Assembly (NCBI RefSeq): GCF_047663525.1
Contig: NC_092592.1
Span: forward strand, 18,612,001 to 18,676,000
From: Anas platyrhynchos
Lineage: Eukaryota; Chordata; Aves; Anseriformes; Anatidae
Direction of reading: 5' to 3'
Length of the DNA stretch: 64,000 bases
Part shown: one piece after another, positions 7,901 to 58,118 of the stretch
Position numbering within the stretch: the first letter of the stretch is position 1
Layout of the letters: each line of letters opens with the position of its first letter
Notes under the pieces: generated by a model
The model's input: only the letters and a program-made list of their open reading frames with translations
Database searches by the model: none
What the model was told of the DNA's origin: nothing
Translations under genes and position numbers: made by a program

Positions 7901-10287
7901 TAGGCCCCGCAGCGTGCTCGGGCAGTGCCCTCATGGAACAGCAGAAAGTCAAAGGGACACGGCCGCGCGGTGCGGTGCTGCGGCAGGGACACTGTAACAC
8001 CAAGCACCAACAAACACCAACAATAAACCACAATACCGGGCACAACAGCAACTCCCCAGCTTATTAAAAATAATATAACTTCAAGGCCCAGCATAATGCC
8101 CATCGGCATCTCCCAGTTACATCAAAAGATCAGCAGCTGATTGACCTCTGTTAAAACCCAATACTTCCACAGCAGGAGACCCAAGGGGCTAGTACGCTTA
8201 ATTCTCTTAAAGATGCCAGCTTGGCAGGCCTGTGAGGGAAGGTATTGATGAATCAAGGAAGAAAACCACATGCTGAGAGCATAAATGACAGTAGACGTAC
8301 TCTGTCTTACTCTGCACTGGAACAGAGGCTGGGAATAGACAGAGGCCTCATTAAGTAAAGATACATCGTGGCATGAACTGTTCATTATTTAAAAACAGAC
8401 ATTTATTATTCATATCCACAATAGAAAAATCCATTCAGAATAAAAGTTAAGTTACTTACATCAGGCAGCTGGATCTCTTTTTACTATTAATACTTTAGTC
8501 ATGGATTGGCTGAATGGTTTTTTTAAGCAATACAGGAAAGTGACTACTGCCCCACCCTAAGGGGAAAAGTACTGAATCACTTGCTTTATGAAACAAAACA
8601 GACATAATCCAAAACAGCAGTGCACGAACTCCTCTGTACGAACACTGCAAGCTTCTGTAGCTAGCGTCTGTTGCCCTGTCTTTCCCATGTTCACTACATA
8701 TCTCACAGCGGATCTTCTGCACCCCAGAGCACCAAGAAGGAATGCCTTCAAGCCCGCCATAATTTATCAGTTTTATCCTGGACCTTTCTTCCTACAGCCT
8801 GGGCTTCACCATCATCCCCCAGCACACATACATCCCATACAGCTGTGCTTGCTCTAAATGAGCTTGCTTCCACTTGTAACTAATCAGCTCTCACATACAT
8901 GCCACTCAGCTGTTTCCTTCCACTTGCAGTTTACCTATCACTGCTTTGAACAAGTACAACTATACGTATCCATGACTGACATGAGTGAATCATATGCTTT
9001 ACTGGCACTGCTTGGAAAAAAACACTCTACTGCAAGAACATACTTTTTGAACACAAACCCTGCTTATCTTTCCATACATTATAATCATGATTACTTGATT
9101 AAGTAATATATCTGACCATCAAAAAGAGAGCAATTATCTAGTGTGCATATCAATTTCCATCAAACATCTTGGATAATTTTATGTTCACTTATAGCCCAAG
9201 CCTGAATTCACGGTCTGCCCTCCCCACAAGATGCAGGCCTTTGAGCATTAGAAATTCAGTAGAGAGCAAGCCTTAATGAAAGCCTAACAATGATCAACTA
9301 GGTAAACTAGGACTCCTCATTCAGAAAACAAATTGACCAAAGAGATACTGAAGAGATCATAAAATTATAAACAGCAGGGAAAGGGAGGGAAATAGGTGAA
9401 GCTAGCAGGAAACAAATTCAGAACCAGCAAAGGAGGGCACATTTTATTGTTGTTTTTGTTTGTTTGTTTTCCTCTCCCCACCAAAGGAGCGTCATTCAGT
9501 GAAAATTCTTGCCACAAGATGTTTAATGTTTTTTGGGCTCCAGGGGAATGTAGACTGGTTTGTGGAAGAGAAATCCTGTGAGGATTACTAATTACTAATC
9601 CATTAGATATGGCTGTATGACCTTGTTGGAGTCAGAAAATGCCTGAGCTACAAACAGAGGCGTCATTTAAGCTCACTCTGTTCTCACGCTCCTTGTCAGG
9701 CATGCCTTGCCTAATTCATTGCTTAACTCATCATCTCAGTGGCAGGAATATTAGGCTAGCTACACCTTTTATTTACTAACATGCAACTGCCCTTATGCAA
9801 GCAGGACATCTGGAAAGCCCTATGAGGGCAGGCAGATGAGTCCCATACTGCCAGGATCCTTTAGACTGAAATTAAATGCCTTTTATTTCCCCCACCCCCC
9901 AGCAGTTTTCAGTGGTCTTCTTTCAGTTTGGCTTAAACAATTAGGGGGAAGTAACTTAAGCCAGCTTCTAGGATACAGATAAAACAGGTCCACATAGAGG
10001 CTGACACTTAAACAAGCTGATAAATATGCACATCCAGATAGTCTCTTACCTCAGAGAAACACCAATGAACAATGGAAAGCCTGGCACTTCAGTGATGAGA
10101 GGACAAACAGAAAGCAAATTTGGGAAAGCCAACAATGGTGGGAAAAAGGGAAACCAAAACAGAAAGCAAAACAGAAAACTAATCTGGGAAACCAAATGGC
10201 GTGCAGGCCCTAGTGAGGCTGACACAGAGCCTCTTGCAGCTACCTACCTAACCCAAGCTGATTCCCCACAGCCCTGAAGCCAAAGCA
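7901..10287. other. Intergenic, no gene seen
   Basis: AT-rich sequence between the VDAC2 island and the first CR1 element. It holds a short T3G run near 9449-9471 but no exon-like conservation that I recognise. The open frames are short and overlap on both strands. Confidence 0.6.
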
Positions 10288-12293: not shown

Positions 12294-12374
12294 TAAATAA
12301 AATAAAATAAAATAAAATAAAATAAAATAAAATAAAATAAAATAAAATAAAATAAAATAAAATAAAATAAAATA
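12294..12374. repeat. (AAAAT)n microsatellite followed by (AG)n
   Basis: About 16 near-perfect AAAAT pentamers, then a short GA run at 12375-12387. Open frames across it read only IL-FYF type repeats and are artefacts. Confidence 0.95.
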
Positions 12375-12909
12375 AGAGAGAGAGAGAAAAAGGAAAGTAG
12401 ACTATAGCATCTTTTTAAAGACTTAGGCCAGGCTATATTTGATGTGGAAAATACATATGCTGCAAAAATATTCATGTGAGTAAAATTACACCAGAACTAA
12501 TTCTATGACCTGAAGAGCAAGAGCTTCTTCTGTGGAACACCTTCAGTATCAGCATGTGTAAAGCACTGAAGCTTAACCTAATCCAATATAATAATTTTTC
12601 ATAAATCATCTCATTTATTTTGTTACATTGCCATGAATTAAAGACAAAATCAACAAACATTGGAGCCTATGGCAGATTGTAAGCAAACAACAGATGCCTA
12701 AAAAATAATGGATTATCTTTACCATCTTGTGCTCCAATCCTGCAAACAGTAGCGCATGCATGCACACATAAACATGCGCACACATGATTGCTTCAATTCG
12801 TGTACCTGCCAGGTGAAGACCTGCAGCTGGAAGCAAATGGCATCTCTGTAAATACCAAAGTACAGACCAGGAGAAGGGGAGATTTGTCACATGTCCAGCA
12901 CTGCATGCA

Positions 12910-23050: not shown

Positions 23051-23144
23051 TGTGGAATTATTAATTATTATGTCCTTAAACATGTTTTGTGACATTTTGT
23101 GGAATTATTAGTTATTATGTCCTTAAACATGTTTTGTGACATTT
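23051..23144. repeat. 47-base tandem duplication
   Basis: Two adjacent 47-base units (23051-23097 and 23098-23144) differ at a single base (TAATTA versus TAGTTA), followed by a T run. This looks like a recent local duplication. Confidence 0.95.
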
Positions 23145-23894
23145 TTTTTTTCCATGTGTAAACAGTACCCACATCAGGTCACTGCTCTGTGAACATTCAG
23201 TATTACAAGCCTCTCCCCAGTATAAAAAGCAATCAGTAATCTTTTAAAAAGCACCATAAGAATACAGAACTCTTAACTTTTACTTAAGTTCTGAAAGTGT
23301 TCTTTGTGATGAGACTTGCAATGAAGTTACACAAGTCGGCAACAGTGCCATTAATTTTATCAGCTCCCCAAGTGCTTCTATTCACACATCAGAGTGTCCA
23401 CAGCCAACTCAGGCACCTCGGAATACTTTTTCATTCCCCAGTCTTTGTCACAGAATTTGAGAACTGACTTGACATCCCATTTACTGAAGACCCCTCCCAG
23501 TGCTACAGTACCAATAGCAATCTTGTTGCCTGCTGTTGTCTCCTGCCCCATTTGTTTTAGGCCAATTGCCCTTAATTACAGTATTTAGAAGTCAACCAGT
23601 GATCCCAAGGCACAGGCTGTTTTGAGGAGTTCATCCAGCAGAGCAAGTAGAAAAAAAAATTGCTTCTTGTATTTACATCGAAGAGTGCTTCTTGGAAAAT
23701 AAGCATACCCTATCTCCTTCCAAACTGATCTTACTTGCTGTGGTATACGAGAGATTAGAGCTTGAAAAAAAAAAAAAATATTTGAGAAACTACTAACACT
23801 CTTATAGAAAAAAAAAAAAAAAAAAATCAAACAAAAATACTTACCTGGGTTGATGGTCAGTATTTTATAGCAATCACTTGACTTGCATGAGGAG

Positions 23895-31409: not shown

Positions 31410-31714
31410 TCAGCCAATCAGTCTTTTCATTATCGTAGGTTTTGAAAATGGCCAGCAATACTCATTGGGAACAGTACCATTAACATTGCATTCAAAGAAA
31501 GAAAACATTGGAAACCAGATCCTTGCTCTTCTACTCTGCTGATATGCTCTCGTATTAGCCAACGTGTGGTAATATAAAAAGAGTCTTGTAGTGATGTAAA
31601 AGGCAATGAAGACATCAATAGAGTAATGTTCATGTGCAGCCAAAATGAAGAAGATTCCAAAGAGGTTCAGGACCCAGGATAAGGTGTGCAAGAAGTTCCA
31701 GCTCCTTGGCGTAT
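31410..31714 (-). CDS. SAMD8: SAMD8 coding exon 5 with catalytic His344 and Asp348, stop
   Basis: 305 bases encoding [16 protein letters not shown] through IMKRLIG and TGA (31412-31410). It contains HEHYSID, supplying the remaining two catalytic residues. Acceptor AG 31716-31715. Confidence 0.97.
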
Positions 31715-34685
31715 CTAGGAGAAAACAGAAAGGAACTGACCTGGAGTGTCTCATATTGCTGGGCTGAAAAGTGCACAGTTGACAACAAGAAGTAGAAATC
31801 AATACAATTCCCTTTTGTTACATATATAAAGTTTCTTGTGAATATATGAAGTTCTTTGAACTATTTCTATAGCAGGAAGCATTTCATGAATGAGATACAG
31901 AATATGCAATTCAATGCAGGACTAAACCCAGTAAGTTTATGTGCAGTTTTTTCCATCCAAAATGTGATGAAATTGTCGTCTTTGTCTGGAAGCTTTGTTT
32001 ACATTCACACATCCAATAAATTCAGTAAGAACAAGTTATAAATGTCAACCACTTCATTACTGCTTTACAGATACAGCTGCTACTATTCTTTTTCAGAATT
32101 AACACAGCATACTAAAGTTCCTCAGGACCATGAAAATCAGAATTTCGTCCCATTGACTATTGTTAATGAAAATCATGCCTTTTACATGTGTAAGGGGAAA
32201 TATAACAAAGTATACATAATTCTGTTATTTCAGTCATTCGATCAAATGTGAACTCAGGCTAATTATTTTAGCTTGCTATAATGATGTATCTAATAACACC
32301 TCATATTTACAGAAGAACTCTGTTTCATTTATTCTCACTCATGAGGTTTCCTATTTTGGATCTGCAGATTATACTAAAGGTAAATAAACCTAGACTGGGC
32401 TTTTGTCTGATGTGTCACTGTCAGATACAAAGGTAACAGAAAATCATTAATACTTTCCCTAGTATTCTAGTTACAAAGCCTTTCTGATTTCCTGGCTCAC
32501 TTCACTTGTTTTTTCCCATGTGCCCTATTTATCCTTCCATTAATTTACATGGTTCTGCTCCTTTACTGTCTGCAAGTTAACTGTCACAAACCTGAGAAAA
32601 AGCCCATGATTTAAATTTGTTAGCTTTAATATCACTCAGCGTGCCTTTGGCTGAGGGCAAGCGGCAGAGAATACTTAAGGACATTAAAGTATTTACACTC
32701 TTGCACCTGTGGTTGACAGCAAACAGTACAAATTCTTAACACTTCAGGACATTCAAGTATTGACACTGTGTACTTACATTCTGTGACAAAGAAGTTGAGC
32801 ATGGTCAGGACAACAGTGTGGCCACTGAACATGTAATCGCCACACGTATGTACTCCAGTCAGAGTCATTCCAAAGCCACTCCATATTGCAAATGCCCGCT
32901 GGAGTTTTGCCCAAACATTGCCGTACAACTAAAAGACAGTACCATTAACCTTTAGTAAGTTCCTCCCCAGCCCAAACAATATACCCTTAAAGTTATACCA
33001 CAGACAACTAGAAATTAGCTGTTTAGCACTATGTATGTTTAGTAGCATTGATCATTTTGTGCCTTTTATGAAAATACACATTTGCACACCTTTAGATTTT
33101 ATTGTGGCAGTCAGTCCCATTAGTAACTACAATTAGTACCTCTGATTAATCCTGGCATTTAGAGTAAGTATTTTGTTGCAAGTAATTTACATACCAAGTC
33201 TGCCACCTTTTTTTTTTTTCCTTCCCCCAAATGCATTCTACCTCCCAATGTGTCTTTGTCAGTCTTCCAGTATTCAGCTCAAACTTCTTCCAACTAAAAG
33301 CTAAGATAAAAATACTAGATCCCATGTTCTATGGAATATTTCTTCTTAGATAGGGTGAAATACTTTTTTCAAAACAAAGCATCCAACAAGACAAAGTGAC
33401 TATTCCACTTTCATCTTGTCTTTGTTAAGTCTGTGTCTTAAGTGCTTATTTCTCTGATGTATTCTCTTCAATTTATGTTGTGAAATAGTCTGAATGCCCC
33501 CCTGCTTCCCTTCACCAAGTCACCATCTCCTCCCCAATGCAGCAGGTGTTTCTAAGACCCCTAAGGATGCATACATGCACAATAGCAACTAATAAAGTTA
33601 GGGATGGAGGGGAAGATAAGAGCAATGTGCTATTCTAACAAATACACACCTAGCATGATGGTTACCGTAATCGTAACCATAACTTAAATAAAACTTAAAA
33701 ATATGCATTTTAAAAAAATCCTGAGAAAGAATTTAAAGCATTTAAAGTTTTTACCTTTCCAGTACACTGCAAGTGCTGGCCTGGCACGGAGAGCGAGGTA
33801 ACAAACATTGTAACGCAACGTAGCAAGAATACTGTCCCCATGAGGCTGCACAGCCTTCGCAGAAGTATAGACCTGGGAAAAAATATATAGGAACTGACAG
33901 TAAGAATACGAATATATCGTATTTTTATGAAGAAAACATTTCCTCCCACCACAGCTTAATTCCATTAGGTCCTTTCACCATTGTTCCAAATGTCATTGTA
34001 TTGTTTATTTATTTTCAGTAGTACTATAAAGGCATTATTCCACATGACAGGGTGAAACAAAGGAGCAGGCTTACTGCCACCAAAAGCCCCACCATCCCAC
34101 TTCTCTGCAGCTATACTAGCTTTGGCACTCATGCCTTCTGTTGGTGAACCTATAAAGATCAACAAACTGGTAAAAATTTAACTTAAAATATACACACACA
34201 CACACACAAAAAGGTTTTCTACCCTCCTTCAGTAACAGCAAGCTGCTAGGCTGGCTCAGTCATCCTGTGAAATTTCATTCTCATAGAATTTTCTTATAAA
34301 CAGAATTGTTACAACATGAGAATACATACATACTGGTGGCTCTCTGAAACGTGTATGTTCAAAAGAAAATAACCAGCAAGTCTGGTAGAAAAATACATCC
34401 ATATTACTCCGTAATGTTTATAACTCAACATCCTTGATTAAATTGTCCTCATACTCCATTTCAACAATATTAAGAAATTCATGAACTTATATTAACTGTA
34501 TAGTCTTAATTAGTCCTGATAAATTCTTTTAAAGTCCTTCCTCTAGATCAAGGCACCACTTAATTTGAATGCATATATACACTGTACCTGTGTTTGTGAA
34601 GCAGAAGAACCAATAGCCAAATGTAGCAAAGAATTACACCACATACTTCAGTCATAGCAAAAGCCCATGGTATCCTTGGGACACT

Positions 34686-34716
<31 letters not shown>

Positions 34717-37097
34717 ATGTTAACCTAAAATACAAACACAAAGGCTTGACTTTTTCTTTCTAGTCTCAGTAATTACAAAAAAAGCATATAAGGTTCTTTT
34801 TAACTACAAAATTAACTTGCATTAATCTCACAATAGTTTATACTACAATCAAAATTATCAATAGACTGAATTAAATAAATTATTTTCAATAATATTATCT
34901 CCTAATAATGTACTTTCAGCAAACGTTTACACAGAATTCAGTAAATGAAAGAAAATCTCTAGTTTGCTCTTTTAATTTACTTGTGATTTACTAAAACGAT
35001 GTTCCTTTGAAGATTGTTGGGAACTAATGATAATCTGACACAAACTTGCATGTCAAGTATGCTGCTTATGCCTATAAGAATACCATGTCAACACAATGAA
35101 ATGCTGCACAACTTTAAGGAAGCAGAACTACACAGGAAAGTATTAGGAAAAGTATAAGTGACTTTTGAAATTAGATTTCAGTGATAATCACTGTATGCAA
35201 ACAGCTTAGCCTTGCTTGTCAAGATTTAATACTTCCTTGCAGGCAGTAGCTACAATTTTCTCCCTGCAACTTCACCAAAATACAGACTGACAGCTTTCAG
35301 GAGAGGCTGCTCCTAATAGTTGTGTTCTCTTTGATACAAAGGGCTAGGAAAGTGTTGCTCAAATGCTAGATTTGTAGTAATCCTCTTGCATTGTTTGGTG
35401 GGTTGCTGCTGTCTGAGCTCCTCCATATCCTTCCACTCACTGAGTACTGTGGAATTTGTCCTGGGAACAAAATCCAGCAATGACATAGTTCTCATTCTCT
35501 CTCCCCTCCATCACTTTGTTTGATAAGGTCCATCCTTGCTGAGCTGTATCTACTTTTATTGGGGATTCTGCACTCTACATCAGAAGATTAGGCCCCTATT
35601 GACTTCACTAAAACCATTAATGAAAAAGAAAATTACTGGCAAGAATAAAAACACTGTGGCTTTTAGACAGTTTATCTTGTCTTTTGGAACTCTCCAGGCC
35701 ATAAATTCTCCATGGTGCAAGTGAACTTCCTCAAATGGAGCATTTATCTCCTACTAAATTTCTCGTCATTGATGAGAATTTCACCTCTGGTGTTGTATAT
35801 CTTTTCTGACTGAAAACTTATATTCTTTAACACTAGAAAAGCCACAGGCACTGTTTAAGTCATTAAAGTGTTTTCGTACACAGATACTCTATGGTTTGTA
35901 AAGGAGCTGACATATTTGGTCTATTTCAGTTCCCCTAAAGCATTTTAAACAAGTTAACATCAAGAAGACAGTATAACTACGGTATCAATGCTATCCCTTT
36001 TCAATTTCCTTACTCATTGGCACTTTGTTGACCAACTTTCCCAAAGCAGAGTACATCTCTTCTCCAGATTGTCAGCCATCTGTGGGCTGCCAGGACTGTG
36101 AAACAACTTAAAATTTAAGACCAAAACATTTCTTCATCAGAAGTCTTTCTATACCAAGACACGTTATGCTTCACAGCAGCATCTGGATTTCAGAAAAAGT
36201 ATGTGTCTGCTTACCTATGAGAGTTGACCATCATCCTTTTTACTAGAATGAGAAGATGAAAGAATTAATTCCTGCATGGTGATTCACTAAAGATGCAGAA
36301 TTAAATATAAATGGGGTAAAATAACAGATTACTTTACCCTGAGAAGACCAAATCCCTACATCTAACAGAAGCACATTTCAGTCTTAACAGAGGGTTTACT
36401 ATACTCATGACAATTTTGTAGAGCATTTTCAAGAGCATTAGAAATGTTGAGAATGAAGAAAAAGCAGCCTATACTTTAAACATGGTTTTATTGTATTGTT
36501 TTAAAAAAAAAATTCTTACCTGTCTAGAAATATGTCTGGTAGAGGTGGATACGTTTGCATGTCAGGTACTCGTTCATGTACTATAACCATAACAAACGAT
36601 GTAAAGCCAAACACTATGAAGACATACACACAACTCAAAATTGTTTTCCAGTACTCTGGGTCCAGTCTCCTCGTGGAGTGTTTGTTTTTGCCATTTGCAT
36701 ACTGATATTGATCACCGTTCAAGTCAGTAATTGGCCCATCATAGTCCCGAGGTACTTCACCATTACAAAACCAATCTGTACCCTGCAGTGAACCAACAGC
36801 AGCGCCCACTGTGCCAATGTGACTATCGCTGCTGTAACCCAGCTCTTCTAGGACATCGATATGTTGCTTCTGTAGCTTGCGTATGGACAACATTAGCCTT
36901 TTGATATCCCCCAGGACTTTGATTTCCAATGGAGGGGATCGTAAATCGTATTCTGTAAGTGTCAGCAATGTAATTCCATCTAGCCTGTGTCTATTGCACA
37001 AAATATCCACATATTCACAGAAGCCTTCTTCCTTCAGCCACTTGGCCACATTCTTGGTCGTCCAACGTCGAATGCAAAGCTGGTTATTGCCTGCCAT
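31410..37097 (-). CDS. SAMD8: SAMD8 (SMSr), ceramide phosphoethanolamine synthase
   Basis: SMSr is an ER membrane enzyme that transfers phosphoethanolamine to ceramide and acts as a ceramide sensor. Five coding exons (36520-37097, 34588-34683, 33755-33872, 32778-32928, 31410-31714) join in frame with GT-AG borders to 1248 bases, 415 residues plus stop, the same length as I recall for the human protein. An N-terminal SAM domain covers residues 12-76 ([15 protein letters not shown] through [12 protein letters not shown]). A first membrane segment lies near 153-175, with five more following. The lipid-phosphate-phosphatase-like catalytic triad is His301 ([10 protein letters not shown]), His344 and Asp348 (HYSID), all present. 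The start MAGNNQLC is chosen by family match. The 24 extra in-frame codons upstream cross an acceptor at 37130-37129 and are mostly intron. Its neighbours VDAC2 and DUSP13 are as in mammals. Very secure. Confidence 0.97.
32778..32928 (-). CDS. SAMD8: SAMD8 coding exon 4 with catalytic His301
   Basis: 151 bases encoding [16 protein letters not shown] through NFFVTE, with the [10 protein letters not shown] motif (His301). Acceptor AG 32930-32929, donor GT 32777-32776. Confidence 0.96.
33755..33872 (-). CDS. SAMD8: SAMD8 coding exon 3
   Basis: 118 bases encoding [19 protein letters not shown] through [11 protein letters not shown] (residues 226-264). Acceptor AG 33874-33873, donor AAAG|GTAAAA (GT 33754-33753). 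Confidence 0.96.
34192..34208. repeat. Short (CA)n microsatellite in SAMD8 intron
   Basis: About eight CA units in the intron between coding exons 2 and 3. Confidence 0.9.
34588..34683 (-). CDS. SAMD8: SAMD8 coding exon 2
   Basis: Ninety-six bases encoding [15 protein letters not shown] through LLVLLLHKH, a membrane span. Both borders are phase 2, so skipping it would keep the frame. The acceptor AG (34685-34684) is preceded by an uninterrupted run of 25 T on the minus strand. The donor is AG|GTACAG. Confidence 0.96.
34686..34710. repeat. A25 homopolymer abutting a SAMD8 splice acceptor
   Basis: Twenty-five A on the plus strand is a T25 polypyrimidine tract on the SAMD8 sense strand, ending directly at the AG of coding exon 2. 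Confidence 0.95.
36520..37097 (-). CDS. SAMD8: SAMD8 coding exon 1: SAM domain and first membrane span
   Basis: 578 bases encoding residues 1-192 plus two bases. The donor is GACAG|GTAAGA (GT 36519-36518). The exon itself begins about 31 bases earlier, at 37128, after an acceptor AG at 37130-37129 with a good pyrimidine tract, so 37098-37128 is 5' UTR. Confidence 0.97.
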
Positions 37098-37128
37098 CGT
37101 CCTTCCTCTATGCGCCAATAAAATTGAC

Positions 37129-40100
37129 CTGTTAGATATTGGAGAAAGAGAGAAGACCTCAATGTCTAACAAAGCTTACTGAAACATTGGTGTCTTCTGT
37201 GTGTTTTTAGATGCTTACTTAGGCAAAGATGTTTTATGTATGAACCTGGCAAAAAACAGACATATGATTCATTAGGCAAGTAATACAAAAATATTTTTTT
37301 AACACTTTGAGTCCAGCAAAACCGAGGAAAGTTTATCTAACTTGAGCCTCAATAGAAATTTAAAGCCACCTAGAAGCAGACTATTTCCTAGATATAGCCA
37401 GTCTTTTATTCTTTTGTTAAAAAAGAAAACCTGAATTTAGGAAATTATGCTAGGCAATGAAGAACAAAGATTACCCTGTTTAAATAGCAGCTTAATAATT
37501 AGTCTTTTCTGCTGTTTGCAGTTCAGAACTAAGCAAGAAAGTATAGCCAGCAACTATGTAAAACTGAATTAAGAGATAAAAAAAAAAAAAAGTAGTACAT
37601 TACAGGTCCAACATATTCCACTGATTTAAAATTCATCCAGAAGCTTTGGCAGTGTGACACCCCCCCCGCCAAGTAAATCTAAGACAAGGTATCTACAGTC
37701 ATACTGACTTGGGATAACTTTGTTGTATGTTAACGGTGCAGTCATCATCTGTTTGAAATGCGTACTTAAGATAAATCATTTGCAGTATCATCTTTACATC
37801 TCGCTGCTTGTTTTAAAAAGGCGCTGTACCTATTGTTAGAAGTAGCACTTATAATTACTGGGTGCAACTTTTATTTCCACTATACATCTAATAGGACTGC
37901 CCTACTTTCTTCTATATCAGAGAACATTTGACTTGTCAATCAAGATTTCCCATCAGTACAAGAGATATAGGGTAGAAGAAAAATGGAAGCACAACTCAAA
38001 GCTGCCCTACTAAAAGCACTGAGGGAGTGGTACCTCTGACAATATTCCCTCTGCAGCTGTTTATATGTAAACAGCACGTACACAATGCAGATTTGATTCC
38101 TCAAAACTCCACATACAGTCAATATGTACATGAGCTTTAATACCTTTATTTGAACAGTTGCTGAAACATCCACAAACAATTACTAGTCTTCTCCACATCT
38201 ACTATATTCTTCCTTCTCCATGTAAGAGCATATTTGTTCATTTCTCTTATCTTACTACTTTTGAAAATACTGCTCAAAACAACTATAACACAGCTATTAC
38301 AAAAGAAATTATGACAATTAGTTTGCAAATTAACGATCAGTTTATTGACCTTTTTGTACTTTTTAAAAATCTTAGTCAAGTAAAAAGAAAAACAACATAA
38401 CATTTAAGTTGCTCATCTGGATTTCCAGCTTCACCTAGAACTGCAGATGAACTGCAAATGTTTGCTATCACAGTGTTTTTGTAACAATGTAGTCATCACC
38501 AGTTTTCTAAAAGCAGTGAATTTAGACTTACCAAAATGTACTCAACTCAGTGGTCTGTCTTCTAACCAAAGCAACTTCTGAGAGCAAAGGCAAGAAACTT
38601 CCTTTACCCTATCAGAACTCCGTTCATTTGAACGAACCAGTATGAATCAAGAATCCTAACACCAACCCAGTGTTTCTTCATATGGCATTCCAGAACTTAT
38701 AAATAAATGAATACATCTGCCCTTGTGTAACATGCAGTAAAAGTGACCTTGCAACACTGAGTAAGCATACCCCAAAACATCAAAGGTCATTACTGAACAG
38801 AGTGGACCCAGGAGAAAGTCTGCATCAGCTTAAGATGCACCTGATAGGACCCACTCCTGCTTTTAGATGCTGCCAAAGAAAAGGCATTTAACCAACTGCA
38901 AAAGAAACAAGCACTTAAAGCACAAACTTCACCATTCCACGCAGCTCACAGCTAACTTCATCTTCAGAGCTACAGGTTACGTTCAGTTTTGATGCGAGGG
39001 TTTTTCTTTAAACCCAGAAGCAACACCCTCCTTCAGACTGTGCATTCAGTGCCACTTCTGTAGCTTACACAGTAAAAAGCACTTTTTCTTAGCACTTAAT
39101 CTAAGCACCTGGAATACAATACTGATCTCTATGCCCAATTGCTACTATTCAGTTTTGAAGCTTACTGAAAGTGTGAATTTACAGGACAGAAGCAGAAATA
39201 TTCTATACTTACGATAATCCTTAATTTTTTCCCATGCCTTTTATGCAGTTTCTTTATCACAATATGTTAACTTGGACTCCAATACAGATTCCACTTACGC
39301 TTCGTAACATTTCCAGCACTACCTGTCTGCGATGCAAGACTTATCGACCTGACCAAAGAGAGCAAGACACCTAGATGACTGTATTTGCCTTTTGGAAGAA
39401 AACAGCACCAACAGCTACTTTGCCTTCTACGTTACTGGTTTTATCTCCGAAACCAAATAATCGAACGCGTGAATAACATGGACCAAGTACAGACTGAAGT
39501 GTCAGAGGGCAAAATATACTTTTCTCCTGACATCAGCAATGTCTGCAGCTAGCTGGTTGATTACTTTCCTGTTACTGTGATTTTATATTTAGTCAGCCCA
39601 TCAGCAGTACGTATCATGTGTTCTATTTCCCCTTTTCTTTCTCTGGCCTTTCGATTAACAGCATGGATACAACCAAATATTAACTACTGCATGTGCGCAA
39701 TGCTGATGGGTGTAAGGAGTCTTTTTATTTTATTTTACAAAAAATGGTGCTTCCTAACTCACGAATATTTCTACAGTTTGGTTAGGGCATTTTCAAAAAC
39801 AAGTTGCCTCTGCAAGACTAAGCATACCCTAGCTATGTTTTCCAATATTACCAACATTTTCCCTGGATTTTCCTTATTTAAATATATATCTCTCCCAAAA
39901 TTAATACCCACAGTTCTATCATGTTTTCCTCTACTGAATCACTGTCAGTCAAACATTACGCCCATAACTTCTCCAGCACATGGACACTGAGTCATTACCC
40001 TGAATTACAAACGTGGCAAGTCAAATATTACCCCTACAATAGGGAAGGGAAAGTAGCACTGCCATGACACCAACACTGGGCAGTAGTCCTGTTACAAGAA

Positions 40101-42589
40101 TGGCCCATCATAGAAACAAAGCTCGCTTACACCAGAATCATAGCTGAGGGGTTAGACAAGCCTCTGGCTGTGCCTGCAGCAGGGTCAGTGGGATACCGAG
40201 CGAGTTGGCCCCAGACACACACACCAAGCTACCAGCATCCTTGCTGCCCCACAGTCTGACCACATGTACGGGGCACGGCCCGTGGCTCTCCTTGCTGACA
40301 TGCTTCAGGATTTTATTTTCCCAGCTATGTTCAGTTCTTGCCATCCTTGAGAGTAATTTTAGGAAGGACGCTGAAGAGCTATCAGATCTCACACGACGTA
40401 ACCTACATTTCTCTGTAGGAGGTTTCAGGCTGCAGTTTGCATATAGGCGACTCCAGCTGTCCCTCCTTCACCAGGTCAGCTGGCCGAGGAGCACAGCACC
40501 TCACACCTTGGGTGAAAAGTTTTCCTGTACAAAGTCTGCTAGCTTGCAATGTGGGCGTGACACAGATTTGAGGCGTTGGCTGTGCTGCTGCACAAAAATA
40601 CCATGCACAAAAGCGCGCACTGAGCCAGCCTGCAATAGTAAGGCTGCTGTCTGGCACACCGACTGAATGCCGTGCTGGAAACAGCACTGCCTTGTCATGC
40701 ACCAAAAGTCTCGGGCACCCCACTGCTTGCATCAGCAGCTCGTCACCTGCTCTTCTTGAAAACTCCAGATTCTCCAGTGCTTATTTAGAGCAAACAGCAC
40801 CAAAGGTTTCATTGCCGTATAGCATGCACTAGTGCAGTGATTTGATCCTTACCTTGTAAATGTCACTACATACAGTCTGTCTTGTAAACAATGGGAGAAA
40901 AAGAACACTTGCAAAAACAGGACAGTGATATATCACATAAATATATAAATTATAAAACTGACCAAGCATGGCACAATGCCCACTGTAAGACTGTAAAATT
41001 GGATACTTCCCTGAAACAAGCCTACATTAATTTCAAGTGCAGCAATATTACTGTAAAACTTTCGTTCAGTTTTACTTAGTGACTTTGCTGTTGGAATTGC
41101 TTTATAAACATTTCTATTAAGTGACACTGTCAGCAGTATTGTAACTGTACTCAAAGGTCTTAATGGAATTTATGAAAGTAAGATAAGAAAATTCAAAGTA
41201 AAACTTGTTTCGCTTACTCTAAGACTTAGGTTTTAAATTATATAGGAAGATGTGCTTTACAAGAATTACTCAGTGAAGTGCTGCATTGTGGAAAACAAAG
41301 AATTGATACTGTGAAATCAAAGATTAGCTCCATATGCTTAGAAGAGCCCTTCTGACAGAATGTCTCCATGCAAAACTGACAGCAACTATTACAGAAAATC
41401 CTGAAAGCTGAACATATTTGTCTTGAGAACCACTAAGAGTGATTACACACTGCAGCACGCTGAACAGAACATACACCGCTCCTTGACTGTTATCCCTCAT
41501 TAAACCAAAGGGGTTGTACTACGCTCAAATGAACACTGAAAGCAGCTCAACTGCTGATCTACTAACCAGTGAACAAAACATTTTTTATCCTAGCACCATA
41601 ATTCAAGGTACACACAAGTGATTTTTAAGCAACTGATCAAGTACTCCCCCACTTAACTTATCACAGAATGTAATTCACGATATTCCCTTAATGTTTGTAC
41701 AAGACCTCGTACATTTCACGCACTAAGTGTCAAATGTCAAGTAGTTCCTCCTCCAACTTCAAGAAATCTTGTACCCATCTGGTAACAACATCTGCTGCTC
41801 TTTACCCTTGGACAACTTACCAGAAAAACAACTCAGGTGTACCGCTCTCCCTGTTTACCTCTTCCTTTTCTTCTCACGCCCCCATTTTCTGATGAAAAGG
41901 GGGGATGACACGAACAGTCCTTCCACCTAACAGCACAACCTCTGAAGCGAAACCACGTTTGCTCTTACTCCTGACAATGACTTACAAACTGATCTTTTTA
42001 AGTCCTGAGAACATCTAAGCCTTCTTCTTTCTAAACACACAAGAAATGAGAAACTTTTACAAGTTATGTGATCATCATTGAACATCTACAATGGCTCAGG
42101 GATCCCAACCAGCCGAGGGGGCAGCAGTGCTGAGGCTCTGTACGCGGAGAAGCGACTACAGAACCTGAACGACTGCAGCTCCAGGACCGAGCTGTGCCTT
42201 TACCCGCGTATTTCTGGGAAGAAAACAAAGCAGAGCGGCAGCAACAGGACCCCCGGAGCAGGGCACCGCTAAATTCCTGCTGGCTGCAAGCCCGCAGGAC
42301 GCCTCCTCCCCGAGCCGCGCTCCCGCATCGCAGCCCCACCGCGCCTCGCCAGGAGCCTCCTGCCAGCCCTGCACACCTCGCCGTGCCCCGACCCCACACC
42401 CTGCCGTGCCCCGGCCCCTCCGGACCCTTCCCCTTTCCCCCCGTAGGGCGCAAAGCACCGCAGGCACCTCCTCCCCACCGCCAGGAGCCCGCACCCCACG
42501 AGCAGCCGCCGCGGGGAAGGGAAAGGCAGGGACTGGGACATGGGCACAGCACAGGGACGCCCCCGTTTCCCCGCCCGGCCCCGGCTCAC
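37129..42589 (-). other. SAMD8: SAMD8 intron 1 (between non-coding exon and start-codon exon)
   Basis: About 5.5 kb bounded by a predicted donor at 42589-42588 and the acceptor at 37130-37129. It contains a short C-run (37661-37668) and several chance open frames up to 153 codons (39577-39990, 40205-40666), none resembling a known family. The right end lies in the CpG island. Confidence 0.6.
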
Positions 42590-42990
42590 CCACCAGCGCT
42601 AAGTGGCGGTGCCGCAGCGCCCGGCCCCGGGACGGCGGCGGCTCCCGGGCGCCCTCCCTGCCTCCTGCAGCGGCGGCGGCCCCCGCAGCCTCCCCATCAC
42701 CCGCACGGAAGCGGCGGCGGCGGCGGCGCGGCAGGCGGAAAGGGCGGAGCGGGGCGGCGGCGGCATCCGGGGGGGCCCCGGGCGGCCAGGCCCAGGGCTT
42801 GGCCCCGCTGCTGCCGGGGAGCCCCTCACAGCGCCCGCACACGGCCGGGGGAAGGTGCCCGAGGCACCCAGGGGCGACCTCGGCTCCTGGGGAGCGGGAG
42901 GGTGGAGGAGGCGGGCAGCGCCTCGCCAGGCCGGCCAGACCTTCCCCGGCCCAGCAGCGGAGCCGAAGAGAAGCGCAGCTTGGAGCTTGT
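42280..42990 (-). promoter_or_regulatory. SAMD8: CpG-island promoter of SAMD8
   Basis: About 700 bases of very GC-rich, CpG-dense sequence 5.2 kb upstream of the SAMD8 start codon and on its 5' side. It includes a CGG-rich stretch at 42710-42729. No TATA box is visible, as expected for a dispersed housekeeping promoter. Proline- and alanine-rich open frames on both strands are composition artefacts. Confidence 0.8.
42590..42740 (-). other. SAMD8: Probable non-coding first exon of SAMD8
   Basis: On the minus strand the island contains a strong donor, CTGGTGG|GTGAGC (GT at 42589-42588), on the 5' side of the acceptor at 37130-37129. I infer a non-coding exon ending at 42590. Its start is unknown and the right coordinate is only a guess. 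The (CCG)n stretch near 42710-42729 may fall within it. Confidence 0.45.
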
Positions 42991-42999
42991 CTGATAACA

Positions 43000-45900
43000 G
43001 AGCACGTCTGAATCCACGAGAGGGTGCAAAATGCGCTGTAGGAATGCACATTAGTATACATTTTTACCCAGCACAGTCTATCACATGGAAGTACCTTAGT
43101 AGGGCCTGGATGAGAGAAAGATGAAAGCTTTTCACCGCGCTAACCAGAATTGTCACTGACTTTACTCCACGCTAAACAGAATCGCCATTCACTTTTTAAT
43201 GAAGCTTACAAACATACAGTTATAACATTCAAAGAAAAAAATACACTTGAATAGTCCATGAACATACCGCCCCCCCCCTTCCTTTGAAGGCATACATGGA
43301 AAATAACACCTGAGAAGACTTGCAGGACCCTTACACAAAGCTCTATTTCCAAATAAATAAACTCTTCCAAAACATTTCTGTCTTCAGAAGCACCATTTCT
43401 GCACAATTATTCTTCTCCGATGTCTGCAGAGGAAATAAATCTGAACGCCAGCAGCTGGCTGACAGCACTCAGGCGTTTCTCCAAGGTGATCCGGAGCACA
43501 GATGCGAACAGCACAAGTGACTTATGAAAGCCTCACCCAGGCACTGTAACTGCAGGTGCTCCACAACCTATAAATAATACAAATGGAAGGGATAGAAGGG
43601 GACGGAAAAGATAGAAATAAGTGATTCCAGAAATAAATTTATTTTGTCTATCAGCTGGCTGCCTTAGCAGTCAGCCCTTTGCCGCAGCAGCCTGAAGAAC
43701 ATACAGAAATTTCTGTATCAATGATGTAGTGGCTATGAGGTCCAATACAAGTCTCCCAAATTGTTGCTTCCTTTGAAGTAAAAAAGCTCAGGTGCAAGTA
43801 ACTTCATTACATTAATAAGCCTAGCTTTTTCAGAGAATTTGGCCTCATACTCTTTTGAGAGGGAAAAGGGGATCTTTTGCAATCCTTACGCCTGTGCAAT
43901 CACAGTGAAACAAAAGGAAATTTTGTATTTCAAAATGCTTCACAGCTACACCAAGTTGTCAAGCCACTGAGCAGTCTAACTCAGCTACCCAAGATTGTTC
44001 AGTCTCAGCTGTAATGGAACATAGCCATTTTAAACAGATGAAGCACTGGCTAGGCAGAATAGACACCAGCTGTAAGAACTTCTGCTCATTATTATGTTGC
44101 CCTGATACTGGTTCAAAGATGCCTCTTTGAGCTGTCCATGCCACCTAGCTTTTATTTTTTACATGAAACAATGTGTTTCTTCCCAAATGAGTGTTGAAGT
44201 TTGAGGCAAAGTTCCTCCTTCTTTGCCCAATCTGGTAGCCTCTGCAATCAGTGTCGGAAGGAAAAGCTGTTTCTGTCCTCTCGATGTTTCTTTTCTTTCC
44301 CTCCACACAAATTAGATGAAAAACTGACAAGTCCAAATATACCAGTGCACTGTAGATCACGTAAGCATGAATTTGGAAAACAAAAACAAAAAACAGACAA
44401 AAAAATCCAAGAGACCTGAAGATAAGCCACTAATAAAGCAGGCTGAAAGTCGAAGCAATTTTTCTTACTGTAAGTCCACATTCAGAGTGTATTCAAAATT
44501 ACTAGCAGTCATCCTTTTTTTTTTTTTTTTAATATGGAAGGTGCCAGAAAAGTGCTGCTTTATTCAGAGTACTGTGGCTTTTTTATTCCTCCTTTTTAAA
44601 AATTTAAGTATTCACTAGAATTCACAAGCTCATTGGATTGCACAAAGGAAAAAAAAAAAGCACAAGCCAAAGGCTTCTTATCCTATTCCCCTACACTGCT
44701 TATAGTTTCCATCTGAAGTTGTCTCTGCTAATGGCATTTTTCTGGCATCTAGTTTCATCACGTTACAAATATTTTCAAAACGACCAAATTAGCTTATGCA
44801 GAAAAGTAATAAAGAGCACAATTTAAAACTTGTAACTCTTAAGTAGAAGTGCACATTTAATAGCTGCTTAGTCGCTGTGCTTCAAAACTGAAAACTACTT
44901 TTCCTTACTAACATCTGATGCCATTTAAAAGGGTGAATTATCTAAATAATTTGTGCTTTATATAACAGAAGTTTCTGATAAACCTCATTCCATCACTGTG
45001 AGTGATGTCACTTCATGCTATGTGACACAAATGCATCGATCTAAGTTTGACAGGCAGAGCCAATGCTGACATGTCAGTCTTAGAATTTATGACAAATGAT
45101 ACGCTACTGATATTTTTAAAATCCCTGCAGATTGCCAAGAAAAAAAAAAAAACTCTTTAAAGTACGTAATTATACTGTGTGCATCTTTAGATTGAAAACA
45201 ATTTATTCAATTTACACAGTTATATTGATTCAATGTTCAGGCTGACATTTAATAACAAAAAGAAAGAAAAATTTTATTGAAGTTTCCCAACTAGGTCCAA
45301 TTACAATATATTACATATAGCACAGGAAAATGAGATGTGTGAATGTAATGGGGTGTTGGGTTTTTTTGAAACAGTCTTTGTCATTAAATAATGGTGTTCG
45401 TATTCAATAATTTGAAATAATCAATCTCTCTCCAATAAATCTAAAGACTATTAAGGAAAGAAAAGCCCTGGGGGAATAGAGAACAAATTGCCTATAAAAA
45501 TTCTCTTCAAGCAAAGAATGCAGCATGGCAAGCGGGGGGGGGGGGGGGGGATCTTTAGCTAGAGGTGCTAATTGATCTACATCATGTTTTTTTCTTTTTG
45601 GTGATCTCTTTGTACAGACCAGGTTGTGCCTTATCATCTGTACTTGTGTTGAAGCATACTCAGATCAGTCATGTGTGAACTTTCAAGCATCTATTTTTAC
45701 CTTTAACTCTCTTACTCCCATAAAGGAAGAAAATTGGACTGAATGGCTAAGAACTAATCAAATTCATCAAGCATAATTGTTTTTCAAGGCAGAAGATGAA
45801 CTTGTTACAGCAGAAAAACAACAGACTGAATGCCATGTGCTAAGCAGACGGAATTGTTCCATAGGTTACAAGCAGATTCATGTTGTAGAACACCAGAAAA

Positions 45901-49103: not shown

Positions 49104-49255
49104 ATGTCCGGGGCAGAGGCACTGGGCCCCCCGGGCCTCGAGCCATGCACAGGAGACGTCCCCTCCCTCAAAGAACTGGAGCAGCTCCTCAGTACCGGGC
49201 GGCCCTCCTGTAACCACGTCGACGAAGTATGGCCTAATCTCTTCTTGGGAGACCT
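49104..49255 (+). CDS. DUSP13A: DUSP13A exon 1
   Basis: ATG at 49104, then 50 codons plus two bases, ending GGAGACCT|GTAAGT. The start is chosen because it gives the family's length and is the last in-frame ATG before the conserved domain. The variable N-terminus ([14 protein letters not shown]) cannot itself confirm it. Confidence 0.9.
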
Positions 49256-51137
49256 GTAAGTAAAGCTGCACGGACTGACTTTGCTCTAACGCCACGCTGT
49301 ACGCTCTGTCTCTTCAGTCTGTTATTATCCCTAATCGGTCAGGCATTAGGTAGCTCTTGGTTTTGCTGACTAATGTCATTTAGACTGCAGACAGCAAAGT
49401 TTCTGAGATAAAATTATGACTGAGTGCATACTTGCTTCTTTGTTAACCCTCGGGAACAATGCGCTGGCTTATGTGCCAGCACATGGCTTGGGAGATGCAA
49501 TCGCAGGACTGTTCCTGCCCTCTGAATATCTCTGTACCCATCTTGATTTGTTTGTGTTGGCCTTTTCCTCAGAGTAACAGCTCACAACAGATTTATTCTG
49601 TGGAAGATGGGCGTTACCCATGTTTTAAACGCTGCCCACGGCACAGCGTACAGCCACGGAGGCCAGGACTATTACGGAGCTACCATTGATTATTATGGTG
49701 TACCAGCCCACGACCTCCCCAGCTTTGATATAAGCCAGTTCTTTTACTCTGCGGCAGAATTTATCCACAAAGCCTTGAACACGCCAGGAGGTATGAAATT
49801 ATCACTGTTCACAGTTTAGATGTGTTGGCAGCCTCTTGTAACTAACTGGTCAGGTCCACAAGCTCAGTGGTGGATGAGTCAGTGTGCGGACTGCTGGTCA
49901 CCTGCCTGGTGGGTGGTGAGGGGAGGGCGTGCTGAGCACACGCATAGCTCTAGCTTGGTCCCAAAGATCAAGGAAGACTGCAAAAAGTTGACGTGAGAAA
50001 AAGGATGGACAGTGAACAAGAGAGACTGAGGAGGAGAGGACAAGGAGGAGAGGGAAAAATATCTGGAAAGAAAGGCTTATTCAAACAAGGAAAAGAAAAA
50101 AACACGCATTTGATATGGACACAATTTTATCTGGTCTAGTCTTCTGAGATCCTCTTGTGACAACTGTATTTGTAAGAACACATGAATAGAGTCACAAGTC
50201 CTGATTTCTCCAGCTACACGACATGTGAAGAGGCCCATACGCTGCAGATGTTCACCCTGTGTGAATAGGGCCTGCAGAGCATGCGACTTAGCAGGAGACG
50301 CACCTTTACCCAAGGAGATTTATGACACGTTGCACAAGAGATTGAGCGTCTTGGCACTGGTGCTATAAAATACTAATTAGCATCTATTACATAAAAGATT
50401 ATTCCTTAGCATGAGTAAACTGGCATTAATGGATCTACCTCAGTCTGTCTCACACGCTCAGCCTTCAAAAAAGAAATACAGCCACAGCAAATTGCCTTAT
50501 TATGCAATAGTACTAGGCCAGTCATTTTTCTTGGTGGCTAATGTGTTAGTGCCATCCTTTCAGGCCATATTGTAGCATTCTTCTTCACCTTAGTGAGCCC
50601 CTCTGAAAGCAATGGGTCTGGTTTTCCTCTTGTTCACAACAGAACAACATCAGTGCTTCCACAGGGTTTTCTTTGATTTACCAGTGTTTCTGAAATCAGG
50701 TTGTGACCTCATGGCACTGCTCATTCAAGTTGCTGGAACAGTTACAAATTAGACTTTACTGTTAGCAGTTCATGCGGTCTATTGAAAGGGTAGAAAATAA
50801 ATTGTTTGCTGTGTTGCTCTGACCACGCTGGAGAATACAGGAGGGGTTTGTCTTCCCTTTAAATTCAACTTCATCCTCTGTGCTACTTCACCTTTATGGT
50901 TATAATTTGCCTTTTTTTTTTCCCCTTTTTTGACCAGCTAAAATTTTGGTACATTGTGCAGTTGGAGTAAGCAGGTCAGCTTCCCTTGTCCTAGCATATC
51001 TCATGATAAATCACCACCTCCCATTGATTGAAGCCATCAAAACAGTGAAGGAACATCGATGGATTTCACCCAATCGTGGCTTTCTGAAACACCTGCGAAA
51101 TCTGGATGTTCAGCTACGGCAAAAGAAGGGCTGCTGA
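49104..51137 (+). CDS. DUSP13A: DUSP13A (MDSP), dual-specificity protein phosphatase
   Basis: Atypical dual-specificity phosphatase that removes phosphate from Ser/Thr and Tyr. The mammalian orthologue is the skeletal-muscle form. Three exons (49104-49255, 49573-49790, 50938-51137) with GT-AG borders join to 570 bases, 189 residues plus stop, against 188 that I recall for human. The N-terminus has [17 protein letters not shown] and [13 protein letters not shown], ending near residue 50. The middle exon gives [13 protein letters not shown] and [13 protein letters not shown], with the general-acid Asp98. The last exon carries the catalytic loop HCAVGVSRS (Cys130, Arg136) and ends with QLRQKKGC. 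The GVPAHDLP and RVDEVWPN-type segments fit the A form better than DUSP13B or DUSP29. It is divergent from SAMD8, as in mammals. A degraded paralogue follows about 4 kb downstream. Confidence 0.95.
49573..49790 (+). CDS. DUSP13A: DUSP13A exon 2
   Basis: 218 bases. The acceptor is TTTTCCTCAG and the donor is GAG|GTATGA. It encodes [16 protein letters not shown] through [10 protein letters not shown], including the general-acid loop. Confidence 0.95.
50938..51137 (+). CDS. DUSP13A: DUSP13A exon 3 with catalytic loop and stop
   Basis: 200 bases following a long pyrimidine tract and CAG (50935-50937). It encodes [19 protein letters not shown] through the stop TGA at 51135-51137. Confidence 0.96.
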
Positions 51138-55459: not shown

Positions 55460-55474
55460 CTCCCTCTGCCCAGG

Positions 55475-55556
55475 AATTGCAAAGTATTTTGAGCAGCTGC
55501 AAGGTGGAATTGAAGCACGTGGGTGACGAGTGGCCTGAGCTCCACATGGGCAATAC
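55475..55556 (+). pseudogene. DUSP13B relic, exon 1 remnant with lost donor
   Basis: HVGDEWPELHMGN aligns without gaps to [13 protein letters not shown] of the intact gene at 49.2 kb, and LxH...WPxLxxG to DUSP13B. FEQL just upstream is in another frame and implies a small deletion. At exactly the expected donor position the sequence is AC|ATAAGT instead of CT|GTAAGT. Confidence 0.75.
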
Positions 55557-57000
55557 ATAAGTGCTATTTGAGGCTGAAGGGCTGAGGAATGTAGTGCTTG
55601 TTAACATATGCTGTTTTATTTAGTTAGCGTTGTTAAATTTAGTTGCCTTAAAATAGACGTAAGATTAGCATAGAAGAAAGCAAAATGACTGCCCATTAAA
55701 GAAGAACCTTCAAAACACACTAAAATGGATTAAGAAGAGGATCAAAATTATCTTTATTCATTTGTATTATTTAAAAAATAGTAAGAAAAAAAATACATTT
55801 CCTAAATGGTGCAGTGTTTAACATGTAGACCACAAGGCAGAATCATGATTCTGAGTGGCCTTAAAATTGAACTATGATTTTTTTTCACTTTCTCAATTTG
55901 GTGATTAAAGAACAGCGATTTTCAAATAATAATAATAAAGTACTCTAATATTTGCTGTTTGTATTATAAGCTGATTTTCAGTTGAAATTTCTGACAGAAT
56001 GTTGATTGTTTCAGCAATTGAATAAACCTGTGCCAGGATCAGGACTTGAGCCACAGCTCGTGCCAAATAACCCAAAGCAGTACCATAAACTGTCACTGCT
56101 TGTTCCTGTGGAACCAGTTATGTGCAGCTCCTCAGGAGCTACCAGGCAATTAAAGATCAATCTAGAATTAAAGCTGTATTCTATAAGACATTTTTCCTTA
56201 TGACTTTATCAGAATTTTGATGGGAGGCCTCTTTAAATGAGTTCAATAATTCATTATATACTACACACTATAACATTATATAATATACACTATAAATAAA
56301 GTAGGCATGGCTGACTTTACATGATGTCTTTCATCCTGGAGGACTTTGAAGTGGTCAACAAACTGATTATTAAATATTTGTCTGCCATCAGCCACTGCTG
56401 ATACAAAAGGCCAAGGCCAAGACCCTTTGGGTTGAAAGGTAAAATATTTTTAAAAGTGCTGCACAATAAGCAGCTCAGGGCACAAGATGTAAAATATCCT
56501 GCAGAAATCAAACCTGACAGTGAATCTTAAATAGGCAGGTTTAACAAGTGGAATTTAGCCAGATTACCAAGATTAATACCACCCCAGCAAAGAAATGTGA
56601 CACAATCAAAGTTTGAGACAAAAGGGTTACAGGCTGTACTAAAACCTGACTGTGTCATTTCAGCATTGTACTTCAAGTCCAATTGTAGCAGGACCTGAGC
56701 TACCTCATGAAGTCAATTTTTACAAGATGTTTGGGCCAGTAACTCCCAATGACTGTAGTCAAATAGAGCCTGCAATACTTGTTAAATTTACAGGAAGTTA
56801 TAGGCAGGATACTCTAAGTTTTCTACTTCTATTTTGAGTATATTTGGAAATCACCACCTTTTACTTTTTACTACATTACAGTTTCCTACGCAAGTCTCTA
56901 AGTGTGGTAGGCACTAAGCTCTGCAGACTAAGAGATTACAAGGCAATAAGATACATTGAGCTGCTTTTTGTCACAAGCTTTCACACACGATTCTCCACAG

Positions 57001-57201
57001 CTTCATAGCCCAAAGCAAGAAAGACCTGTGAGGGCTTGGTGTCCCTTGTGTACTGAATGCTGCACGTTTTGCATAGGGAAGCAAAGGGGACCAAACATTC
57101 CGTGGCCAGGAATGGCATTGTTATGGAATAACTGCAGAGGACTTTCACCTTGGCACACATTTCTCTACCACCTCTGAGTACATTCTCAAGGCCAAACAGT
57201 G
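57001..57201 (+). pseudogene. DUSP13B relic, exon 2 remnant
   Basis: The acceptor CCACAG (to 57000) and donor GTG|GTAAGC are both intact. Reading in the phase set by exon 1 gives 17 gap-free positions up to GLGV against human DUSP13B, then VLNAA, RG, YGI-AED and F....EYI. Two in-frame stops (TGA 57029, TAG 57074) and net loss of about four codons relative to the family. Confidence 0.88.
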
Positions 57202-57913
57202 GTAAGCCACTGCTCTAACACAGCACTTGCGTTAAGCAATCACAGGTTACTTCAGAAGCATTAACTATACTTCATTCAACCACTGGGTAAGCCTAATTAT
57301 CTACTTACAGATATTGTCTCCATGGTTAGAGAGAGGATAGCAGCATCCTGAAAGATAAGGAGTGGTCCACAAAACTACATCCAAGTCAGTGTCCATCACA
57401 TATGGCCCACTACAATGACCGGAGTGTATCTTCTGTAACAGAAGAGAAAAAAGTAAGCAAGTAGAAATGGGAACAATGCTGTATTTTAGTGAGTGGGGAG
57501 AAGGACGAATTTCCAGTTGAAAAACACTTTTTTTGTTGTTGTTGTTTGAGTTTTTCTGTATTGATTCATCAGAATACAAAACACACAAAATGTTACTTTC
57601 TGGTTTGAGAAGCAGCCAAAATCCGCAAACAGCTATTATAAAGACATGCCAATTGGCCATTTACAAAGCCTAATGCCATATGTTTTCCTATTTTTCTGGA
57701 CTCAGATCTCTAGTAACAAAAAGTGGTTCTTGATTTATGAAAGAGATGAATGTAATACCCTGAAGGGTACTTTATCACAGCAGCTGTAAATTCGATCTCT
57801 AAGAAATGAGATGATGTGGGTAAGGCAGAAGTACCAGCTTATGCAATCTGTGAGCATGGCACTATTCTGTGCAGCCTGGAACAGCACAACATGTATTCAT
57901 TTTTATTTTGCAG

Positions 57914-58118
57914 GAAAATCTTGGTTCACTGTATTCTTGGAAAAAGCAGATCTGCCTCCCTTGTACTACCTTAACCTTATGATCTTCCATCACTTTTCTC
58001 TGGGAATGCTATCCAAGGAGTTATCCGGTACTGAGTAATTTCATCAAGAGGAGCATTCCTGAAACAGCTGCAGGACTTAGATATTGAACTAAGATACATA
58101 CGGTATACACCTATGTAA
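57914..58118 (+). pseudogene. DUSP13B relic, exon 3 remnant with catalytic loop
   Basis: Follows TTTTATTTTGCAG. Reads [18 protein letters not shown], then a one-base insertion, LMIFHHFSLG, a one-base deletion, AIQGVIRY-stop-VI, FLKQLQDLDIEL, and a TAA at 58116-58118 close to the family's natural end. The TGA at 58032 stands where the family has Arg, as a CGA-to-TGA CpG transition would give. Confidence 0.92.

Follow-up and report, generated by a model that had tools for sequence, protein, structure and literature searches.

Remains of a dead three-exon dual-specificity phosphatase gene in a bird DUSP13-DUSP29 cluster

In the human genome, the gene order across the region is taken here to be SAMD8-DUSP13-DUPD1-KAT6B. 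The same four genes are named together, in an alphabetical list, for one human region in the accessible part of a published report (PMC3436827). In a newt, expression reported under the name DUSP13 exceeded that in ovary more than 1000-fold when measured in testis (PMC7096497). The standing of mouse Dusp13 as the ortholog of human DUSP13 is doubted in an accessible excerpt of another study (PMC2453138), and names within the DUSP13 family therefore need care. For DUSP26, the catalytic roles of the Cys, Arg and Asp residues are described in the part of the source at hand (PMC7828806). A unitary pseudogene of birds is known for STK33, described in the accessible text as dead in neognath birds for some 100 million years (PMC4509753). 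Among the titles listed from the open-licence literature of PMC, none was recognisable as dealing with a relic in the DUSP13 cluster or with an extra bird DUSP13 gene. We describe here a dead gene of this cluster, located within a 64-kb stretch of bird DNA (hereafter the window). A sequence-only reading of the window had taken it for DUSP13B, lost in this lineage.

The analysis covered 154 kb of DNA, the window being extended by 10 kb on its upstream side and by 80 kb on its downstream side. In tblastn searches, five three-exon DUSP sets were detected, all on the plus strand (Table 1). Four of them, labelled A (DUSP13A), C (13B-like), D (DUSP13B) and E (DUSP29), have GT/AG splice sites and open frames made up of a whole number of codons. 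Genes C, D and E are located past the window end, in the next 80 kb, and thus outside the 64 kb seen by the sequence-only reading. Genome-wide Pfam search (1.26 Gb, 42 contigs) gave 43 DSPc matches at E <= 0.001, including four near the relic, all on the plus strand, one in the window (18662937) and three beyond it (18686478, 18710559 and 18748667). In a tree of eight proteins, four from the bird and four from human (the latter in the form of crystal constructs), constructed without the relic, E was grouped with human DUSP29 (99/98), C and D with human DUSP13B (98/97), D with human DUSP13B (93/89), and A with human DUSP13A (84/86), the last group being joined by human DUSP26 at 96/93. The tree in which C was held with D was 4.84 log units worse (p-AU 0.063, no formal rejection), and p-AU was 0.044 when A was held with DUSP26. 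The N-terminus of gene D has a DSL..DL.RP stretch in common with human DUSP13B. Judged from these sequences, gene D is the intact DUSP13B ortholog, with its start 33.3 kb downstream of the relic end, gene E is DUSP29, and gene C is a further DUSP13B-like gene, which may represent an ancestral gene lost in mammals.

The upstream flank of the cluster was read as SAMD8, from Pfam matches and, for one open frame, by eye, and the other flank as KAT6B (Table 1). The best MOZ_SAS match, read as KAT6B, at C6:18788764-18788946 on the minus strand, includes one TAG in the open frame. Long overlapping low-complexity open frames are present on both strands at window positions 6874-8064 and 42067-43139; they look like CpG-island promoters, and the frames at 42067-43139 adjoin the SAMD8 reading. 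The window also contains a 47-base unit in two copies with 97% matches (23051-23145) and, at 12295-12375, an array in which AAATA is repeated perfectly over 16.2 copies.

Table 1. Positions of the relic, the intact DUSP genes and the flanking matches (window coordinates unless of eight digits)
Feature	Position	Strand	Basis or remark
Relic exon 1 (PSAQELQSILSSCKVELKHVGDEWPELHMGN)	55462..55556	+	tblastn to DUSP13A, 31.6 bits (shuffle maximum 28.5); 5' limit uncertain
Lost exon-1 donor of relic, AC/ATAAGT	55557..55558	+	AT, where intact genes have GT; comparison with intact genes
Relic exon 2 (FIAQSKKDL(stop)GLGVPCVLNAARFA(stop)GSKGDQ... to CAGTG/gtaagc)	57001..57201	+	tblastn and reading of lesions
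Relic exon 3 (ends FLKQLQDLDIELRYIRYTPM(stop))	57914..58118	+	47.0 bits to bird DUSP29, 43.5 to DUSP13A
Gene A, DUSP13A	49104-51137	+	best PDB relative human DUSP13A 5xjv, E 5.9e-74
DUSP13A coding exon 1 (MSGAEALG... to GGAGACCT/gtaagt)	49104..49255	+	
DUSP13A coding exon 2	49573..49790	+	
DUSP13A coding exon 3 (active site HCAVGVSRS; ends in a stop codon)	50938..51137	+	DSPc match
Gene C, 13B-like	71468-74708 (window-relative) = C6:18683468-18686708	+	human DUSP13B 2pq5, E 3.5e-66
Gene D, DUSP13B	91414-98819 (window-relative) = C6:18703414-18710819	+	human DUSP13B 2gwo, E 1.2e-79
Gene E, DUSP29/DUPD1	122879-137041 (window-relative)	+	human DUSP29/DUPD1 2y96, E 1.7e-97
SAM-domain-like open frame, read by eye as SAMD8	36519..37175	-	upstream flank of the DUSP cluster
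PAP2_C exon matches, read as SAMD8	31563-31712, 32716-32847 (from 18643563, 18644716)	-	Pfam
MOZ_SAS matches, read as KAT6B	18765590 to 18788946	-	Pfam; other flank

The fifth set, at 55462-58118, is composed of the remnants of three exons of an atypical DUSP, collinear and on one strand. DUSP13A ends at 51137 and the relic begins at 55462, and the sequence-only reading was right in placing three collinear coding-exon remnants directly downstream of intact DUSP13A. After masking of the four intact DUSP genes in the 154 kb, the 18 best tblastn matches of these eight DUSP proteins were all inside the three relic exons, and the next-best match outside them was 23.9 bits. The best scores were 47.0 bits for exon 3, 31.6 bits for exon 1 and 33.9 bits for exon 2, where this alignment overruns the exon end and the best match confined to the exon is 31.6 bits; the best match of each exon was above the maximum over 60 dinucleotide shuffles, 28.5 bits. 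The relic is divided at the same positions as the intact cluster genes, which have three coding exons. Its splice phase, said to match, was found to do so at the exon 1/2 junction (AC/C, as in GGAGACCT/A of DUSP13A) but not at the exon 2/3 junction, where the relic has TG/G versus G/NN in the family, a compensated shift. The last relic frame closes at TAA 58116-58118, which is also the end coordinate given by the earlier reading, and no start codon was identified for relic exon 1. The active site is still legible as HCILGKSR, with the Cys and Arg of the HCX5R motif, and as AED with the general-acid Asp; in our alignment, the Asp of DUSP26 would be the one in AHD/AED. Among the three relic pieces, a single match to Pfam DSPc was obtained, for exon 3, with 21.0 bits versus the cut-off of 33.5; intact DUSP13A exon 2 alone gives 23.1 bits, and this whole-domain cut-off is ill-suited to single exons. 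With the score below the cut-off and none of the 43 DSPc matches found across the genome (E <= 0.001) falling on the relic, it is plausible that automatic annotation would miss it, as had been anticipated. The presence of a real three-exon relic at 55462-58118 was thus confirmed.

Disabling lesions, comprising stops, frame-shifting indels and a dead donor, are present in the relic. Exon 2 includes two in-frame stops, TGA at 57029-57031 and TAG at 57074-57076. In exon 3 there are TGA at 58032-58034 and TAA at 57972-57974, the latter made by a one-base gain that shifts the frame. Alignment with the intact family indicated deletions in exon 2 of about 9 nt internally and about 8 nt at the end, and in exon 3 a loss of one base at the start, followed by a gain of one and a loss of one within. 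The three in-frame stops and the lost donor listed previously were all found, but the indels are more than the two then counted, and the description of exon 2 as nearly gap-free was slightly generous. The exon 2 acceptor AG, the exon 2 donor GT and the exon 3 acceptor are retained. The relic is a dead gene, and no intact copy of it was detected by tblastn in the 154 kb.

Identity between the relic and gene A by codon position was 52/69/36% (155 codons), and that of the intact pairs was 57/71/35% for A-D (187 codons) and 55/69/34% for A-C (189 codons); the codon sets differ from those of the intact pairs, and the gradient of the relic is of the coding kind. When the same 155 codons were compared throughout, the mean first-plus-second-position identity was 0.577 between the relic and the intact genes versus 0.672-0.691 among the intact genes. 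As the relic is less like the intact genes than these are to each other, part of its divergence represents decay after death. In a drift simulation, each intact gene was allowed to drift unconstrained with 600 draws per step, and the resemblance was 0.588 at d 0.2 and 0.567 at d 0.25, the relic value being between the two. Three stops were commonest at d 0.15 (25%) and still appeared in 13-21% at d 0.25-0.5; the count is compatible with d 0.2-0.25 but by itself limits the date little. These results suggest a time since death of roughly 0.2 substitutions per site, before which protein constraint would have acted on the gene over most of its history. The bird neutral rate is taken here as near 2e-9 per site per year, and no published value was found in the literature search. 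At this rate, death would have occurred around 100 million years ago, with an uncertainty of at least twofold. In the P-loop stretch, 12-15 of 18 residues are kept between the relic and the intact genes versus 13-17 of 18 among the intact genes, and since it is kept no better than among these genes, there is no sign of present selection.

We then compared the relic with its possible relatives. Over 148-153 columns, identity was highest with A (42.8%), followed by human DUSP13B (39.9%), D (38.6%), human DUSP26 (38.5%), human DUSP29 (37.9%), E (37.3%), human DUSP13A (36.9%) and C (35.3%). In 5000 column resamples scored by BLOSUM62, A was the best in 3067, D in 953, human DUSP13B in 522, human DUSP26 in 322, E in 97, human DUSP13A in 27, human DUSP29 in 9 and C in 3; by identity, A was the best in 3952 of 5000. 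When the columns of each exon were scored separately, A came first for exons 1 and 3. At the DNA level, exon 3 matched A with 62.6% over 179 bases (E 4e-11) and gene E with 63.0% over 173 bases (E 6e-8). The Trp of the LLW/LFW/LIW motif, which is found in DUSP13B, gene C and DUSP29, is missing from the relic, and HHF is present, like HHL in A. The relic belongs to the DUSP13/DUSP29/DUSP26 group of atypical DUSPs, by its three-exon division and its active-site residues, and our best guess for the nearest kin by similarity would be DUSP13A. All the points in favour of A also favour the narrower reading in which DUSP13A itself was duplicated and the copy decayed into the relic. Against that reading, exon 2 gave column scores of 103 with human DUSP13B, 92 with D and 76 with A, and in BLAST exon 3 was closest to gene E (47.0 bits), with D at 43.9 and A at 43.5. 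Among the best 12 DNA matches per locus, those beyond exon 3, in introns and flanks, were at most 39 bases long with E of at least 0.001, and the A locus contributed only one outside exon 3, of 39 bases with E 0.018; the relic is therefore no recent copy of DUSP13A. In the maximum-likelihood tree, the relic fell next to the group of C, D and human DUSP13B, a position without support (43/37). Its branch, with a length of 3.84, is too long for a supported place; in seven other groupings in which the relic was held together with other members, AU p was 0.35-0.57 with none rejected, and it was 0.41-0.42 when the relic was held with DUSP13A. As this tree placement weighs against a DUSP13A duplicate, lower odds were given to that reading, which we offer as tentative and rather doubtful.

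The same tree neighbours, the top exon 2 score with human DUSP13B and the location directly after DUSP13A, as for human DUSP13B, are what speaks for the relic as the true DUSP13B. Against this, DUSP13A is closer by identity, the tree gave 43/37 and gene D is the better candidate: the best solved relative of this intact gene is human DUSP13B (Table 1), with which it has the N-terminal stretch and the 93/89 grouping in common. The identification of the relic as DUSP13B is thus very hard to maintain, and the claimed loss in this lineage is corrected by gene D, a DUSP13B present and intact in the bird. With DUSP13B not lost, the conclusion drawn earlier on how broadly a testis phosphatase is required falls, and what the relic marks instead is a lost paralogue whose siblings are alive. 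A resemblance due to chance, or a fault of the assembly, is less credible still and can practically be dismissed: exons 1 and 2 each give low scores on their own (31-34 bits), but all three exons exceed every one of the shuffles in collinear order on one strand, exons 2 and 3 have splice sites at the right places, and several independent lesions distributed over three exons do not look like an assembly slip. The remnant might also still act as an RNA or in gene regulation. The splice sites kept around exon 2 and before exon 3 could allow splicing of an exon 2-3 transcript, and in mouse the MDSP transcript continues through exons 4, 5 and 7-9 as 3'-UTR, according to the accessible part of the source (PMC11274236). 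Such activity is nevertheless highly improbable, as the extent of decay fits drift without constraint, the P-loop is kept no better than among intact relatives, and searches of the window gave neither a tRNA nor, at gathering thresholds, any Rfam match.

We consider the relic to be an ordinary dead tandem paralogue, most probably (about 0.84) a pseudogene left by an old fifth member of the tandem cluster SAMD8-DUSP13A-...-DUSP29-KAT6B. When working, this fifth member would have encoded, on the three-exon plan of the family, a small phosphatase of the atypical dual-specificity kind. The gene would have been under constraint for most of its existence and then have escaped it, collecting the stops, the indels and the dead exon-1 donor, and now yields no phosphatase protein. 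Loss through redundancy with the four neighbouring siblings would be the simplest account. The cluster here thus includes four intact genes and one dead gene versus three human proteins, DUSP13A, DUSP13B and DUSP29. In the tree, gene C branches outside the group of bird and human DUSP13B, although C with D is not formally rejected (p-AU 0.063); this would suggest that the ancestral cluster was larger and that mammals and birds lost different members of it. A fuller history along this line is speculative and unlikely as a whole: the ancestor of mammals and birds would have carried five tandem DUSP genes from SAMD8 to KAT6B, of which mammals kept three, losing the relic gene and C, and birds kept four; an ortholog of the relic would be alive in some reptiles or palaeognaths, and the non-coding exons between the mammalian DUSP13A and DUSP13B units would be the transcribed remains of the lost genes.

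Compared with known systems, the relic resembles the STK33 unitary pseudogene in leaving bird remnants with indels and stops, but STK33 underwent several large genomic deletions, at least in the part of the report available (PMC4509753), whereas the relic is a tandem paralogue with intact siblings, seen in one genome. With DUSP13A/MDSP it shares the three-exon plan, the exon 1/2 phase, the highest identity (to the bird gene), the HH and the lack of the Trp; DUSP13A is, however, intact next door, and the relic is dead, its identity to human DUSP13A being as low as 36.9%. DUSP13B/TMDP belongs to the same family and cluster, with 38.6-39.9% identity and an unsupported neighbourhood in the tree, and differs in having an intact ortholog, gene D, farther downstream. 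DUSP29/DUPD1, also of the same cluster, gave the highest single-exon BLAST score, that of exon 3, whereas its own ortholog, gene E, is intact at the far end of the cluster.
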